This document shows, piece by piece, positions 30,899 to 35,735 of a DNA stretch of 64,000 nt. The translations under genes were made by a program, and so were the position numbers. The stretch's first letter is position 1. Each line of letters starts with the position of its first letter. The notes beneath the pieces are model-generated. The model made no database searches. It was not told the DNA's origin and saw nothing but the letters and a program-made list of their open reading frames with translations. Origin of the DNA: Pelagicoccus sp. SDUM812003 (GTDB taxonomy: Bacteria > Verrucomicrobiota > Verrucomicrobiia > Opitutales > Opitutaceae); contig NZ_JARXHY010000002.1 of the NCBI RefSeq assembly GCF_031127815.1, positions 248,001-312,000 on the forward strand, in the 5' to 3' direction.

Positions 30899-31411
30899 AT
30901 GAAGAACCTTAAGAAACTACTTGCCGGCATCGCTGGCGTCGCAACCGCAACTGCCGCCTTCGGTGGCGCCAACGAAAGCGCCAGCCTCTCCGCTACGATC
31001 GATGCGGGCGCCCTGGAAATCGTCGCTTCCTCCCTTTCCGGCACCTACTCGCCAGTCGGAGGCGCCGTCACCATCACCGGAGCCGAGCAAGCGGACGCCC
31101 TCGTTTTCAACATCGACGGAATCACCGTAGACGACCTCGACGGAAACGGATCCGGTTGGGTGCTCTCCGCCACGCCGGCCGCCAATCTGACTGACGGATC
31201 GAACAACCTTCCCCTCGGTACGACCGCTGGCTTCAACAATCCTTCGGACTCCGGAAACACCACCATCGACAGCGCCAACCAGATCACCTACGGCAGTGGA
31301 ACGGGCATCGAGGGCTACACCGTCGACTACGATGTCGCCTACACCGTTCCTGCTTACACGGATGCTGGTTCATACACAGGTGTCGTCGCTTTCGCGATCA
31401 CTTCCCTCTAA
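30899..31411 (+). CDS. Fibre subunit 1 (WxL-like, putative major pilin of chaperone-usher system)
   Basis: 170 residues with a signal peptide (LLAGIAGVATATAAFGG). The mature part has no cysteine and looks all-beta. It begins with an alternating hydrophobic strand (ASLSATIDAGALEI) that could act as a donor strand. A central DDLDGNGSGWVLSA carries a W-x-L motif preceded by an aspartate/glycine turn, as in WxL domains, and the end DAGSYTGVVAFAITSL matches the last strand of WxL/DUF4402/spore-coat-U-like subunits with F replacing the second tryptophan. First gene of the operon; its long upstream leader and position suggest the main structural subunit. Function is inferred from the linked chaperone and usher. 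Confidence 0.7.
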   Translation: MKNLKKLLAGIAGVATATAAFGGANESASLSATIDAGALEIVASSLSGTYSPVGGAVTITGAEQADALVFNIDGITVDDLDGNGSGWVLSATPAANLTDGSNNLPLGTTAGFNNPSDSGNTTIDSANQITYGSGTGIEGYTVDYDVAYTVPAYTDAGSYTGVVAFAITSL

Positions 31412-31427
31412 GCGCCCGTCGCACTGA

Positions 31428-31937
31428 ATGCCCCCTTTTCGAAAGTCACTGGTTTGCTTCATCAGCGCTGCTTGCTCGTCGACCCTCCAATCCGGATCGG
31501 TCGAGGAGGCCACGCTCCAGGTCACGGTCAATCCTGGGGTGTTGGAAATAGCGCCCTCATCGGTCAACGGTCCGTTCACGCCAACTAGTGGTGCAGTCAG
31601 CGTGACGAGCGCCGATCAAGCCGACGCAGTGACTTTCCAGATCCCCGACATTCTAGTCAACGATCTGAACGGAGATGGCCTGGGGTGGCGCCTAACCGCC
31701 GCCCCGGGCAATCTTAGCAACGGTTCCCTCACCCTCCCAATCGGCACTATCGCCGGCTTCCAAAACCCAAGCGACCTGTCGGGCACCTCGATAGAAGACC
31801 CCAACGCAGTGGTCTTCAGCTCCGGTTCCGGCATCGCGAACTTCACCATCGACTATCACATCTCCTACGACGTTCCGGCCTACGCCGAGGTAGGCGAATA
31901 CTCAGGAGCCATCGTTTTCACCATCGTCGCAGAATGA
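31428..31937 (+). CDS. Fibre subunit 2 (WxL-like)
   Basis: 169 residues and a clear paralogue of the preceding protein. Aligned segments include LQVTVNPGVLEIAPSSVNG, VNDLNGDGLGWRLTAAPGNL (W-x-L motif) and VPAYAEVGEYSGAIVFTIVAE at the C-terminus. The N-terminus, FRKSLVCFISAACSSTLQSG, is a signal peptide; the ISAAC segment is a weak lipobox candidate, so a lipoprotein form cannot be excluded. Starts 16 bases after subunit 1 and overlaps subunit 3 by 4 bases (ATGA), so translation is coupled. Could be a minor or anchoring subunit. Confidence 0.7.
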   Translation: MPPFRKSLVCFISAACSSTLQSGSVEEATLQVTVNPGVLEIAPSSVNGPFTPTSGAVSVTSADQADAVTFQIPDILVNDLNGDGLGWRLTAAPGNLSNGSLTLPIGTIAGFQNPSDLSGTSIEDPNAVVFSSGSGIANFTIDYHISYDVPAYAEVGEYSGAIVFTIVAE

Positions 31938-32449
31938 ACTGCTCCCCACACAGTTCTCTCGAAAAACAGCCATCGCCCCATCGTCACACTCTAAGAACAG
32001 CCGCGCTCTTGGCTTTGGCCGTTCTATGGCTGCCGATTTCCGGGCTGGCAGCCATCAACCTTCGCACCGATCGGAGCTTCTCCCTTCCCAGCATCGAAGT
32101 CAGGTCGACTCCCCAAAGCGTCTACTCCGGCGACCTGACGCTCGACCTCATAAACAACAACGACAGCGCCGGCTGGATTCTCACCGGAGAAGTGGACACC
32201 GGACACCTCATCGGATCAAGCAGTGGCGAACGGATTCCCGCCACCCTCGCCTTCAAATCCATCACTTGGGTCAAGGGTGGAAACGGAAACGCCGCAGGCA
32301 TCACCATTTCGCCGAACGGTTCCACCATCGAAGCGGATCCGGGATTCGGCCTTGGCCAATACACCATCGTATTCGAAATCCGCTACGACGTGCCCGCCTA
32401 CCCCAGAGCAGACAGCTATCAAGGAGTATCCACATTCATAATACAATAG
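31934..32449 (+). CDS. Fibre subunit 3 (divergent WxL-like, possible tip or initiator)
   Basis: 171 residues. A positively charged leader and long hydrophobic stretch (RTAALLALAVLWLPISGLAA) form the signal peptide. The mature part is more divergent than subunits 1 and 2 but keeps the order: N-terminal strand (SFSLPSIEVRST), a W-x-L motif in NNDSAGWILTGEVDTG, and FEIRYDVPAYPRADSYQGVS near the end. Overlaps subunit 2 by 4 bases and precedes the chaperone by 32 bases. Its divergence would suit a tip or initiating subunit; there is no separate two-domain adhesin gene. Role is inferred. Confidence 0.65.
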   Translation: MNCSPHSSLEKQPSPHRHTLRTAALLALAVLWLPISGLAAINLRTDRSFSLPSIEVRSTPQSVYSGDLTLDLINNNDSAGWILTGEVDTGHLIGSSSGERIPATLAFKSITWVKGGNGNAAGITISPNGSTIEADPGFGLGQYTIVFEIRYDVPAYPRADSYQGVSTFIIQ

Positions 32450-32481
32450 ACCTTCACCCGTCCCACGCAACCAATCGACCT

Positions 32482-33294
32482 ATGAAACGACTCGCCTTAA
32501 CCTCCCTCCTAGCGATCCTTGTCTCCAGTTTCGCCCACGCCTTCAGCGTCAGCCCCATGGTCGCTGACTTCGATCCCAACGCCCCTAGATCCCAGCAAGT
32601 TTTCGTACTAACCAACGCCAGCGACCAGGAGAAGCCGGTGGAAATCACCGTCGCCAAACCCTTGCTCGATGAAAACGGCGTCGAGACCATGGACATCGGA
32701 AATGGCGAGGACGAGTTTCTCATCATCCCGCAGCAATTCGTACTCCCTCCTAACGCCCGGCGCTCGGTCAAGGTCATCTACGTCGGCGATCCTCGCGAGA
32801 CCGAAGACACCTATCGCATCGTTTTCAAGGAACTGCCAGTCGATCTCGCCCAGGACGAAGTCCTGCCCGAAGGCGAAAGCTCCTTCAGCATGCGCATCGT
32901 CATGCAGTACAATACACGAATCTGGCTCACTCCATCCGGACTGGAAGACGAGCTCGCGATCACCCGCTTCGACAAGTATGAGATGCCAAGTCCCGATTCC
33001 GTCTCCCTCCCAGACGAACGTAACGAAAACGCCACTACGGATTCCCAAACCATTCCCATGCTGCGCTTCACCGTCGCCAACACCGGCCCGGCCCATGGAT
33101 ACATTCGGTATCCGAAAATCAGCTTGGTGACGAAGGCGGGAAACCGATACGAGCTCGACAAGGAGGACCTGCAGTACGTGGCCGGACAAGTCGTCATGAA
33201 AGAGAGCCAGAAGGAATTCAAGATACGTTGGCAGGACGATTTTCCTGACATCGTCGACATCGAACGCATCGACCTCGTCACGAAAAAGCGGTGA
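32482..33294 (+). CDS. Periplasmic pilus-assembly chaperone (PapD-like, alternate type)
   Basis: 270 residues with signal peptide (LTSLLAILVSSFAHA). The N-terminal Ig-like domain has the chaperone pattern: FSVSPMVADFDPNAPRSQQV, FVLTNASDQEKPVEITV, then FVLPPNARRSVKVIYVGD and DTYRIVFKELPVDL, which correspond to the subunit-binding strands. A second domain follows. The arrangement resembles chaperones of the alpha (CS1/Tcf) or archaic clades more than PapD/FimC. It would cap subunits in the periplasm and deliver them to the usher encoded next; the stop and the usher GTG overlap by 4 bases. Confidence 0.8.
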   Translation: MKRLALTSLLAILVSSFAHAFSVSPMVADFDPNAPRSQQVFVLTNASDQEKPVEITVAKPLLDENGVETMDIGNGEDEFLIIPQQFVLPPNARRSVKVIYVGDPRETEDTYRIVFKELPVDLAQDEVLPEGESSFSMRIVMQYNTRIWLTPSGLEDELAITRFDKYEMPSPDSVSLPDERNENATTDSQTIPMLRFTVANTGPAHGYIRYPKISLVTKAGNRYELDKEDLQYVAGQVVMKESQKEFKIRWQDDFPDIVDIERIDLVTKKR

Positions 33295-35735
33295 GCAGGC
33301 GGCCAATAGTCCGAGCTATCGCGACGATCGCTCTGGCTTTGGCTCTCGGCATCACTAGCGAAGGGGCTTCTCTGGAAGAGGACGACAACGCCCTCTCCTT
33401 CCCGTTCGAAATCGAGATAAACGGGAAAAGCCACGGCGAAGTCGTTGCCCGAACCACCGCCACTCTAGACATCGTCGAACTGCAGGGAAGCGACCTTCGC
33501 GAGCTCGTGGTCGACTTCGTCTCCCTCGACTTCCTGCCTCTCATCGAATCGTTGCCAGACGATTTCACCTCCCTTGAAACGCTTAGAGAGCTCGGACTCG
33601 AAATCCATCTCGATCTCGAGCGACTTGTCATTGCTCTTCAAATACAGGAAAGAACGAAAAACGCAGACACCGGTCCTCGCAGCATACAGCTCGGCTACCA
33701 ACGCCAGATCAACTACGATGGTCACGAGCCCCAGGCGCGCTTCAGCGGCTACGCCAACTTGCGCTTCAGATCGCAACGCTCGCAGAGGGACGGACTCGAT
33801 GGCGAGCTCGAACACTCGCTGGGCATCGACCACGTGCTCAACCTGAGCGGCTACGCCCTCGAAGGGGAAAGCCTATGGAACGAGCAGGACGGGTTCTCAC
33901 TGCGCGACCTGCGTCTGGTGCGCGATTTCCCAAACAAGCTGCTTCGCCTGAGCGTGGGAGATATCTCCACGCCCATCAACGACCTGCAGCGCGGCTTCCA
34001 GCTCGTCGGGGCAAGCCTATCGAAGGAGTTCGGCATTCAGCCCTATCGCACCTTCACTCCGACGAGCTCAGCGAGCTTTCGCCTCGAAGAAAGCGCCACT
34101 GTGAACGTGAAGGTAAATGGCAGGCTGGCTCGCACGCTGCAGCTGGATGCTGGCGACTACAGCATCGAGGAGTTCAAACTCGCTGCGGGGCCCAATACCA
34201 TGGAACTGGAGATCCAAACCGACTCAGGGCTCCACGATTCGCTGAACGTGAGCGAGTTCGGAGCGCTGCATCTGCTCGATTCCGGCGTATCCACCTATTC
34301 ACTATCCATGGGCTTTCCTAGGGCTTCGGAATCCACGCCTGACGCGACACGACTCACAAGTGTCGACTGGTTCGAACGCTACATCGAAAAGGAGCCTCTC
34401 CTGAGCGGCTACTACAAGAAGGGGTTGAGCAACCAGTTCACCGGAACTATCGATTTTCAGGGTTCCGCCGACTGGAACCGTCTCGGCGTCGGGGTCTACA
34501 CCGCCAGCGAACGGTTCGGATCACTCAACCTGAGTCTGAGCCATAATCGCGTTTCTCAATCGAAAGGGGCGATCTCCTCGCGGCTTACCTGGAATCGTGA
34601 CCTGTTTGGATACGGCATATCGCTTTCCTCTTTGTATTCAGGCATAGGATACTCTCAGTTTCAGAGCGACCAGCAAGCGAGCGAGCGGGACCTTCGCAGC
34701 ACACACTCCCTGACGATTTCAAAGCTCTTTCGGGAAAAGCTGAACGCCTCGATCAGCTACCTGCAGCAAACGCGTCACGACGGATCGCGTCGTCAGACCA
34801 CTACCGCTCGCATCGGCAGGCGATTCGGTCCGGTCTACGCTTCGCTGTCTCTTCGCTCCAATCGGGACGACCGCAGCGACGAGCACGGAGGCTTTCTCTC
34901 CCTGACCTGGAATCCAGCTCGAAAATGGCGGGCGCGGAGCCTGGCTCGGTATTCGAATGTGGAGACCGGAAATTCGCTTTCCACCTCGCTGGACTACTCG
35001 AACCGCCGAGCGAACAGCTACCTCAACGCTAGAATCAACGCCGAAAAAAGCGAAAGTGGCTTTGACTACGACGGGAGCATTACCTTCGAAAACGAGCGCT
35101 TCTCCGCAGCCTTCGCCCATACCGAAGTGTACGATACCATCGACGGTTTCGCGAACCAAGGCCGCTCCAGCTCGCTCACCATCCGCTCCGCAGTGGCGTT
35201 CGCGGATGGATCGATCGGATTCACTCGCAACATACGCGACAGTTTCGCGATCGTCGACAAGCACGCGGCATGGGGAGACGAGACGCTCGGCATCAATCCC
35301 AGCGTGAACGGCTTCGAACACTACAACAAAAGCCGTCTTTTCAGTCCTGTTCTCCCAAACCTGCGCGCCTACCGCGAAGACGTGGCCACCATCCAGACAG
35401 TAGACAGCGATCTTTTTCTCGAACGAAACGACTACTACTTCTTTCCCGGCTACCGGCGCGGCGTACGACTGGAATTGGGGGACGATGCGATCTACTCCCT
35501 GCGCAGCACCCTCACCTACAGCGATGGCGAACCGGTGAAATACAAAGCGATCCTTTTCGTACGCGAGGACGGAGAAAGCTTCAGCACCTTCACCAACGCG
35601 GTGGGACGGTTTCTGATGTCAGGCCTTACCACCGGTCGCTACCGCATCCAAGCTCCCAATACGGATGAAACCGCCATCGTAGAGATCCATGAAGGCGAAA
35701 CCCTCTCCTTCGTGCCGTCCATCGCCCTCCAATAG
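33291..35735 (+). CDS. Outer-membrane usher (TcfC/CS1-like)
   Basis: 814 residues, GTG start overlapping the chaperone stop. Signal peptide ATIALALALGITSEGAS. Residues 30-125 form an usher-type N-terminal domain (FPFEIEINGKSHGEVVART ... LRELGLEIHLDLERLVIALQ). Residues 130-700 show alternating strands rich in aromatic and serine/arginine residues, as in a large beta-barrel. A plug-like Ig segment is suggested by VNVKVNGRLARTLQLDAGDY within residues 255-330. The C-terminus (LRAYREDVATIQTVDSDLFL, VGRFLMSGLTTGRYRIQAP) matches the C-terminal domains of TcfC-type ushers. No cysteine was noticed in the mature protein. It would form the outer-membrane pore for export and polymerisation of the fibre subunits. 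Confidence 0.78.
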   Translation: MSRRPIVRAIATIALALALGITSEGASLEEDDNALSFPFEIEINGKSHGEVVARTTATLDIVELQGSDLRELVVDFVSLDFLPLIESLPDDFTSLETLRELGLEIHLDLERLVIALQIQERTKNADTGPRSIQLGYQRQINYDGHEPQARFSGYANLRFRSQRSQRDGLDGELEHSLGIDHVLNLSGYALEGESLWNEQDGFSLRDLRLVRDFPNKLLRLSVGDISTPINDLQRGFQLVGASLSKEFGIQPYRTFTPTSSASFRLEESATVNVKVNGRLARTLQLDAGDYSIEEFKLAAGPNTMELEIQTDSGLHDSLNVSEFGALHLLDSGVSTYSLSMGFPRASESTPDATRLTSVDWFERYIEKEPLLSGYYKKGLSNQFTGTIDFQGSADWNRLGVGVYTASERFGSLNLSLSHNRVSQSKGAISSRLTWNRDLFGYGISLSSLYSGIGYSQFQSDQQASERDLRSTHSLTISKLFREKLNASISYLQQTRHDGSRRQTTTARIGRRFGPVYASLSLRSNRDDRSDEHGGFLSLTWNPARKWRARSLARYSNVETGNSLSTSLDYSNRRANSYLNARINAEKSESGFDYDGSITFENERFSAAFAHTEVYDTIDGFANQGRSSSLTIRSAVAFADGSIGFTRNIRDSFAIVDKHAAWGDETLGINPSVNGFEHYNKSRLFSPVLPNLRAYREDVATIQTVDSDLFLERNDYYFFPGYRRGVRLELGDDAIYSLRSTLTYSDGEPVKYKAILFVREDGESFSTFTNAVGRFLMSGLTTGRYRIQAPNTDETAIVEIHEGETLSFVPSIALQ

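Follow-up and report, generated by a model that had tools for sequence, protein, structure and literature searches.

We analysed a stretch of 64,000 nucleotides, hereafter the window, from the genome of Pelagicoccus sp. SDUM812003 (phylum Verrucomicrobiota; contig NZ_JARXHY010000002.1, positions 248,001 to 312,000), in which five co-directional genes on the + strand, at positions 30899-35735, encode three small proteins that we call S1, S2 and S3, a PapD-like chaperone and an usher (Table 1). A preliminary description of this DNA had given the same gene order with gaps of 16-32 bases and 4-base overlaps, and re-reading of the coordinates confirmed it: two gaps, of 16 and 32 bases, alternate with two 4-base overlaps, and about 520 bases without a callable gene lie upstream of S1. 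Our reading is that these five genes form a complete chaperone-usher fibre system, to which we give a probability of roughly 0.87. The usher and the chaperone both match their Pfam families and the operon is conserved in related genomes, which bears out the earlier claim of a chaperone-usher operon in a Verrucomicrobia genome.

The 814-residue protein matched the Pfam family Usher (PF00577) over residues 180-660 (E=1.9e-15, 57.1 bits against a cut-off of 27.1), which was the only usher match when the whole window genome was scanned with PF00577, and its residues 32-813 aligned with a profile built from five relatives, of which three carry an usher annotation, at 100% and 4e-72 in a profile-profile comparison. 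It is thus an usher, as first described, and not another kind of beta-barrel. NCBIfam usher models matched it weakly (E=0.003-0.004) and the usher profile found no credible sequence match in the PDB. The protein can be divided into an N-terminal region (about residues 27-150), a barrel with a plug (about residues 255-330, limits set by analogy) and a C-terminal domain resembling CarboxypepD_reg, whose match over residues 737-803 (E=2.5e-5, 25 bits) stayed under the family cut-off of 32.3.

The 270-residue protein encoded just ahead of the usher matched PapD_N (E=7.9e-6, 26.3 bits against a cut-off of 23), its gene being the sole PapD_N match in the window genome at E<=0.001, while NCBIfam models matched it weakly (TcfA chaperone, E=0.0019; FimC, 0.077). 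When a profile of five orthologous chaperones was compared with the PDB, all six matches up to E=1 were pilus chaperones: EcpB (0.0034), an entry named 'Gram-negative pili assembly chaperone' (0.018), CfaA (0.027 and 0.038) and CsuC (0.089 and 0.095). By profile-profile comparison, residues 9-256 also aligned at 99.8% with six relatives, five of which are annotated as fimbrial chaperones.

The three small proteins proved to be paralogues, as had been proposed. S1 and S2 are 44% identical and S3 is 24% identical to S1; a profile of S1 and S2 matched only S1, S2 and S3 in the window genome at E<=1, with S3 at E=2.7e-5, and hhalign aligned S3 with S1 and S2 at 95.8% over 43 columns, the common part being C-terminal. 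The spacing between an IEV and a GW motif, matched by eye, is 27 residues in S3 and 47 in S1, and the secretion signals of the three proteins were likewise judged by eye. Searches of Pfam and NCBIfam assigned none of them to a family with a meaningful E-value, and their profiles found no credible PDB relative by sequence; together with the profile comparisons described below, which returned no pilin family either, this agrees with the earlier remark that the subunits do not resemble classical pilins. Two other candidate relationships were rejected: a link to Gram-positive WxL domains, suggested by the GWxL motif, gave no WxL match at E<=1, and WD40-like PDB matches of the S3 profile, which had zero passing stretches and concerned repeat-bearing WD-40/beta-propeller chains, were treated as chance.

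Table 1. Genes of the operon (positions in the window) and S1-like genes found outside it in related genomes (positions in the loci named)
Feature	Position	Strand	Description
S1	30899-31411	+	170 residues; fibre subunit, proposed major pilin; followed by a 16-base gap
S2	31428-31937	+	169 residues; S1 paralogue, proposed minor pilin; 4-base overlap with S3
S3	31934-32449	+	171 residues; divergent paralogue, proposed tip or end subunit; followed by a 32-base gap
Chaperone	32482-33294	+	270 residues; PapD-like, predicted periplasmic; PapD_N match; 4-base overlap with usher
Usher	33291-35735	+	814 residues, GTG start; predicted outer membrane; PF00577 match
Orphan S1-like genes	L063 3505-4050; L064 3412-3954; L065 4026-4592; L066 4034-4537		In DG1235 (two), P. 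mobilis and G012

The operon in related genomes

All five genes, in unchanged order, were also found in Verrucomicrobiae bacterium DG1235, in the Pelagicoccus metagenome-assembled genome (MAG) IP29b and in Pelagicoccus mobilis, with identities to the window proteins of 75-78% for S1, 68-73% for S2, 52-54% for S3, 67-72% for the chaperone and 54-58% for the usher. That one gene order persists in three relatives at 52-78% protein identity argues that the operon is not a chance arrangement. A genome of another genus (G012; locus L008, 6130-11121) has S1, S3, the chaperone and the usher, and no S2 frame was seen between its S1 and S3. In the G012 S3, some 80 acidic, glutamate-rich residues are inserted, and because of this large insertion the subunit alignments do not include the protein.

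This conservation also bears on a different explanation, in which the chaperone and the usher would export a non-fibrous, coat-like surface layer, or in which the operon would be decaying and inactive. In the window, the usher is not followed by an adhesin gene, and some spore-coat relatives of archaic pilins form coats, both of which would suit it. We nevertheless judge it very unlikely, since four genomes keep the five reading frames whole and G012 keeps its set of four, and open frames at such identities argue for a maintained function.

The genes flanking the operon were recognised by eye: the upstream one, which we take to encode an iron-type alcohol dehydrogenase, and the converging one downstream of the usher, presumably recF. 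An alcohol dehydrogenase gene upstream and a recF-like gene downstream are common to the window, DG1235, P. mobilis and G012; P. mobilis has two additional genes ahead of recF. The contig of MAG IP29b stops just ahead of S1, and different genes lie downstream of its operon.

Few genomes of the phylum encode an usher. Among the genomes sampled, the window's own being counted each time, PF00577 detected an usher in 3 of 120 of the family; in the order, a profile of the orthologous ushers found one in 6 of 372 genomes and a subunit profile matched 5 of 372; across the phylum, 3 of 387 genomes had an usher by PF00577 and likewise by a profile of 15 ushers. Since PF00577 missed the DG1235 genome (G110) in the family scan, which the usher profile found, the PF00577 counts are lower bounds. 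Three scanned genomes (G110, G419 and G063) correspond to loci L002, L004 and L003 by identical usher sequence, and each was used once in the trees. A genome of the same taxonomic family (G358) has a reduced subunit-chaperone-usher operon with one subunit gene (L016, 6452-10498), whose usher is 30.6% identical to that of Leptolyngbya sp. BL0902 but 26% identical to that of the window; its chaperone is likewise nearer to that of Leptolyngbya, which suggests a separate acquisition, or transfer between phyla.

S1-like genes also occur outside the operon. At least four such orphans were found, two in DG1235, one in P. mobilis (G419) and one in G012, these counts being lower bounds because at most nine candidates were scored per genome. 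Neither a chaperone nor an usher gene was seen in the 8-8.5 kb around each, and the orphan pilins may supply alternative subunits. One orphan in DG1235 and one in P. mobilis adjoin the same conserved neighbour gene.

A 2016 survey records fimbrial ushers from four phyla, Proteobacteria, Spirochaetae, Cyanobacteria and Deinococcus/Thermus, and has none from Verrucomicrobia (PMC4827864). An intact, conserved operon in Verrucomicrobiota broadens that surveyed phylum range. We found no report of a chaperone-usher system in Verrucomicrobiota in a search of open-licence papers, so that an earlier description elsewhere is possible.

Subunits, chaperone and proposed fibre assembly

Non-classical chaperones are characterised, according to PMC4654587, by a donor strand in a shifted register, a large P0 residue and an Arg that binds the subunit C-terminus, in addition to a Pro found chaperone-wide. 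In the window chaperone, Arg112 stands at the position of EcpB Arg89 and Pro83 at that of EcpB Pro60, the chaperone-wide Pro, and five of five orthologues keep both. The candidate donor residues of its G1 strand are F135-M137-I139-M141-Y143, of which Tyr143 aligns with a Tyr of an Acinetobacter chaperone. Judging from these residues, a non-classical donor-strand mechanism is likely, and its details may differ.

In the subunits, residues 27-36 of S1 form an N-terminal stretch of alternating hydrophobic and polar residues that we propose as the donor strand. For nine operon S1 and S2 proteins and four orphans taken jointly, the alternation was reached by 129 of 20,000 column permutations, in a test whose stretch was anchored on a motif picked after the sequences had been viewed; for single sequences, the shuffle fractions ran from 0.0055 to 0.45. 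An AlphaFold2 model of S1, built from 12 sequences and with a mean predicted local distance difference test score (pLDDT) of 54.2, has strands from residue 53 onwards and leaves residues 1-52 unstructured, which would be consistent with a pilin awaiting a donor strand but does not demonstrate one.

We thus propose the following scheme for the five-gene fibre system. S1, S2 and S3 would reach the periplasm via their signal peptides, and the chaperone would lend its G1 strand to each subunit in the shifted register of non-classical (archaic/alpha) chaperones, with Arg112 gripping the subunit C-terminus. The chaperone would then hand the subunits to the 814-residue usher, at which the incoming subunit's N-terminal strand would displace the chaperone strand and the chain would be extruded as a thin fibre, which may serve adhesion or biofilm formation. 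This fibre would consist mainly of S1; with no adhesin gene behind the usher, its end (tip) would most likely be formed by S3.

Several observations weigh against this reading. The predicted model of the chaperone is poor (mean pLDDT 40.6), so that the earlier description of a PapD-like chaperone stands as regards the PapD_N domain and the alignment with relatives, but its two-domain Ig fold is not demonstrated by the model. In the alignment, the anchor Tyr of the second domain is replaced by Val, and Arg209, the second anchor Arg, is offset by two residues from EcpB Arg148; nor is the equivalent of EcpB Arg89 kept throughout the usher clade described below, since G358 has Thr there and one of two Vibrio chaperones has Phe. 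The alternation is weak in the four orphan paralogues taken singly (0.14-0.45) and in S2 of DG1235 (0.12). The S1 model does not demonstrate an incomplete Ig fold, both structure predictions were too weak to reveal donor-strand exchange, and Foldseek returned 0 matches to it at E<=0.001. A comparison with VIA-align gave a weak likeness to the DraE/DaaE adhesins (Z 4.9-5.0), suggestive only, which stood among unrelated rows: the top row was an ion channel (Z 5.1), and capsid proteins also occurred at tied Z. No connection with SCPU, EcpA or the remaining clade pilins emerged from profiles of S1/S2 or of S3. On its own, the N-terminal segment of the usher resembled none of the reference classes (4.7% archaic, 0.1% alpha, 0.2% classical), and two genomes of the window's own genus (G019 and G089) gave no usher match.

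Placement of the usher and its plasmid relatives

When the window usher was searched by tblastn against 72,556 plasmid records, 35 records were matched, the best being Leptolyngbya (2e-37, 92% coverage), with Acinetobacter archaic-type ushers lower in the same list. The Leptolyngbya usher, used in turn as the query, matched 244 records, 9 of them (its own included) over at least 80% of the query and at E 4e-44 or better, after which the next row dropped to 64% coverage and 2e-18. The window chaperone matched 25 plasmid records, which by genus tally are these 9 usher records and 16 from Deinococcus (20 of the 25 rows listed). Usher and chaperone searches independently reach the same plasmid operons, which counts in favour of the fibre-system reading; S1 matched no plasmid record at E<=0.1. 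In six annotated records the clade pilins are labelled hypothetical protein, and three records are unannotated there; on the Sphingobium, Novosphingobium and Qipengyuania plasmids, pilins and usher alike bear only that label (L043 1250-7158, L044 1391-7321, L022 4186-9158). Such 'hypothetical protein' genes are likely pilins and ushers. Both Vibrionaceae operons of the clade encode two different chaperones in tandem (L021 4351-5741; L045 2399-3872, the latter unannotated and read from open frames).

In phylogenetic trees, the window usher fell into a clade of 15 rows that includes a cyanobacterium, alphaproteobacteria and two Vibrionaceae. Across trees of 17, 22, 30 and 31 ushers, the window group and these relatives stayed together (99/97, 98/96, 98/95, 97/94), archaic ushers grouped with classical ones (95/95, 99/99, 99/97, and 94/85 when the long Deinococcus row was included), and four alpha ushers, where sampled, formed a separate group (100/100) that does not contain the window usher. 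Midpoint rooting served only to draw the trees, and any statement about sister groups depends on the root. The sampling was small and plasmid-biased, with between 4 and 7 ushers of archaic type and a single one from Deinococcus; loci L024, L038 and L039 enter no tree. As sampled, with seven archaic ushers and one from Deinococcus, the window's usher lineage stands apart from alpha, archaic and classical ushers alike.

The preliminary description had called the usher 'TcfC/CS1-like', and this label did not survive. In the window usher, Pfam found neither TcfC (PF16967) nor CooC_C (PF15976) at E<=1, whereas the positive control EcpC had both (6.2e-19 and 7.3e-21) and no PF00577 at E<=0.1; by blastp, the window usher reached EcpC at E=8.7 but an archaic usher at 6e-24, and the trees place it outside the alpha group. 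The alpha assignment (CS1/TcfC/Ecp) of the operon does draw on the chaperone: profiles of the orthologous chaperones scored 95.1% with alpha, 40.9% with archaic and 18.5% with classical chaperones, the best PDB matches were of the EcpB and CfaA type, and the weak NCBIfam match was to TcfA. It draws also on the CarboxypepD_reg-like C-terminus, a domain that EcpC shares. Once clade relatives were added, the chaperones scored 98.2% with archaic, 96.9% with alpha and 93.8% with classical ones, and the chaperone tree does not separate the classes. We therefore consider an alpha system very unlikely, and the assignment largely refuted for the usher. The alpha-type usher of Sphingomonas daechungensis is annotated as two adjoining genes, a TcfC part and a CS1 C-terminal part (L038 2957-5369), and may be interrupted or misassembled.

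Domain content, which partly bears out the trees, was compared among 12 clade ushers (all but those of DG1235, IP29b and P. mobilis) and five of the seven archaic ones (all but Sphingobium TKS and Sinorhizobium). PF00577 was above cut-off in 9 of the 12 clade ushers. CarboxypepD_reg was matched at E<=0.1 by 7 of the 12, always under cut-off, and by EcpC, but by none of the five archaic ushers nor by FimD. PapC_C at E<=0.1 showed the opposite pattern, being absent from all 12 clade ushers but present in 4 of the 5 archaic ones and in FimD. TcfC and CooC_C were strong in EcpC only, with weak TcfC matches in Leptolyngbya (6.4e-4) and Photobacterium (0.052). The clade profile itself scored best with archaic ushers (100%, 4.9e-49), then with classical (99.6%) and alpha (88.4%) ushers; the plug and barrel segments tie the usher to archaic ushers (96.2-99.9%), and the C-terminal segment was weak everywhere (15% alpha, 1.7% archaic, 1.9% classical). 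The clade, in 7 of the 12 ushers scanned, combines an archaic-like barrel with a C-terminal domain match that no other scanned usher except the alpha usher EcpC shows, which bears on the origins of the classes.

Alternatively, the operon may belong to the archaic (sigma) class, which would then be broader than sampled and into which the clade would merge with wider sampling, the proposed mechanism being uncontradicted. Besides the profile match of the clade ushers, the order subunits-chaperone-usher is archaic-like, archaic systems are said in PMC4654587 to occur in Cyanobacteria and Deinococcus-Thermus, and the clade includes a cyanobacterium. Several clade pilins also lean towards SCPU, by profile in the sphingomonad (97.2%) and the Vibrionaceae (93.5%), and by Pfam (cut-off 22.4) in a Leptolyngbya pilin (21.6 bits) and in the protein encoded after the Qipengyuania usher (25.5 bits, above cut-off); of the seven archaic operons in the trees, six are annotated as spore coat U and the seventh, a Caballeronia record, is unannotated. 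Against this stand the four trees, in which archaic ushers join the classical ones apart from the window clade, the distribution of PapC_C, and the window pilins themselves. For S1, S2 and S3, an SCPU identity was rejected: none matched SCPU at E<=1, as compared with E=4e-24 for a control Acinetobacter pilin, and they have no cysteine after residue 22, where each of six SCPU references has two, a pair described as invariant in the archaic class in the same source (PMC4654587). We put membership of the archaic class at close to an even chance.

More tentatively, the window usher could represent a fourth major branch beside archaic plus classical ushers, present in Verrucomicrobiota, Cyanobacteria, Alphaproteobacteria and Vibrionaceae and often ending in an alpha-resembling CarboxypepD_reg-like domain, in which Pelagicoccus-type genomes would have their own cysteine-free pilins together with orphans that could feed the usher; we regard this as possible rather than probable. 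Altogether, the locus is very probably a genuine chaperone-usher fibre operon on a little-described branch, with pilins that fall outside the families in the libraries searched. The earlier suggestion of a new type of surface fibre is accordingly kept for the usher lineage, distinct as sampled, and for the subunit family, which is new, but not for the assembly principle, which is a known one.

Comparison with known systems

Alpha pili (Ecp, CS1/CFA/I) resemble the window system in the CarboxypepD_reg-like end of the usher and, tentatively, in their chaperones, EcpB and CfaA. They differ in that the window usher lacks TcfC and CooC_C and lies outside the alpha group, and its pilins have no profile link to EcpA.

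The plasmid operons of Leptolyngbya sp. BL0902, Vibrio alginolyticus 2439-01, Qipengyuania citrea E4 and six other records share the usher clade with the window (98/95), and their chaperones match too. These ushers are only 19-24% identical to that of the window over their full length, and their pilins have no profile link to S1, S2 or S3; several of them encode a protein of about 290-320 residues after the usher. The G358 operon has the window-like subunit-chaperone-usher order and an usher of the same clade, and differs by its single subunit gene.

With archaic (sigma) pili, such as Csu of Acinetobacter and CupE of Pseudomonas, the window system has in common the order subunits-chaperone-usher, the profile match of the usher barrel and plug, the non-classical Arg and the Pro of the chaperone and, presumably, assembly into a thin fibre. 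It departs from them by subunits that lack an SCPU match and mature cysteines, by an usher that lacks PapC_C and falls outside the archaic group as sampled, and by the lack of a tip gene after the usher. CupE, described in PMC10104325 as having one major and two minor pilins with a chaperone and an usher, offers a model for the pilin set of the window, with the difference that CupE has a tip gene and the window has none.

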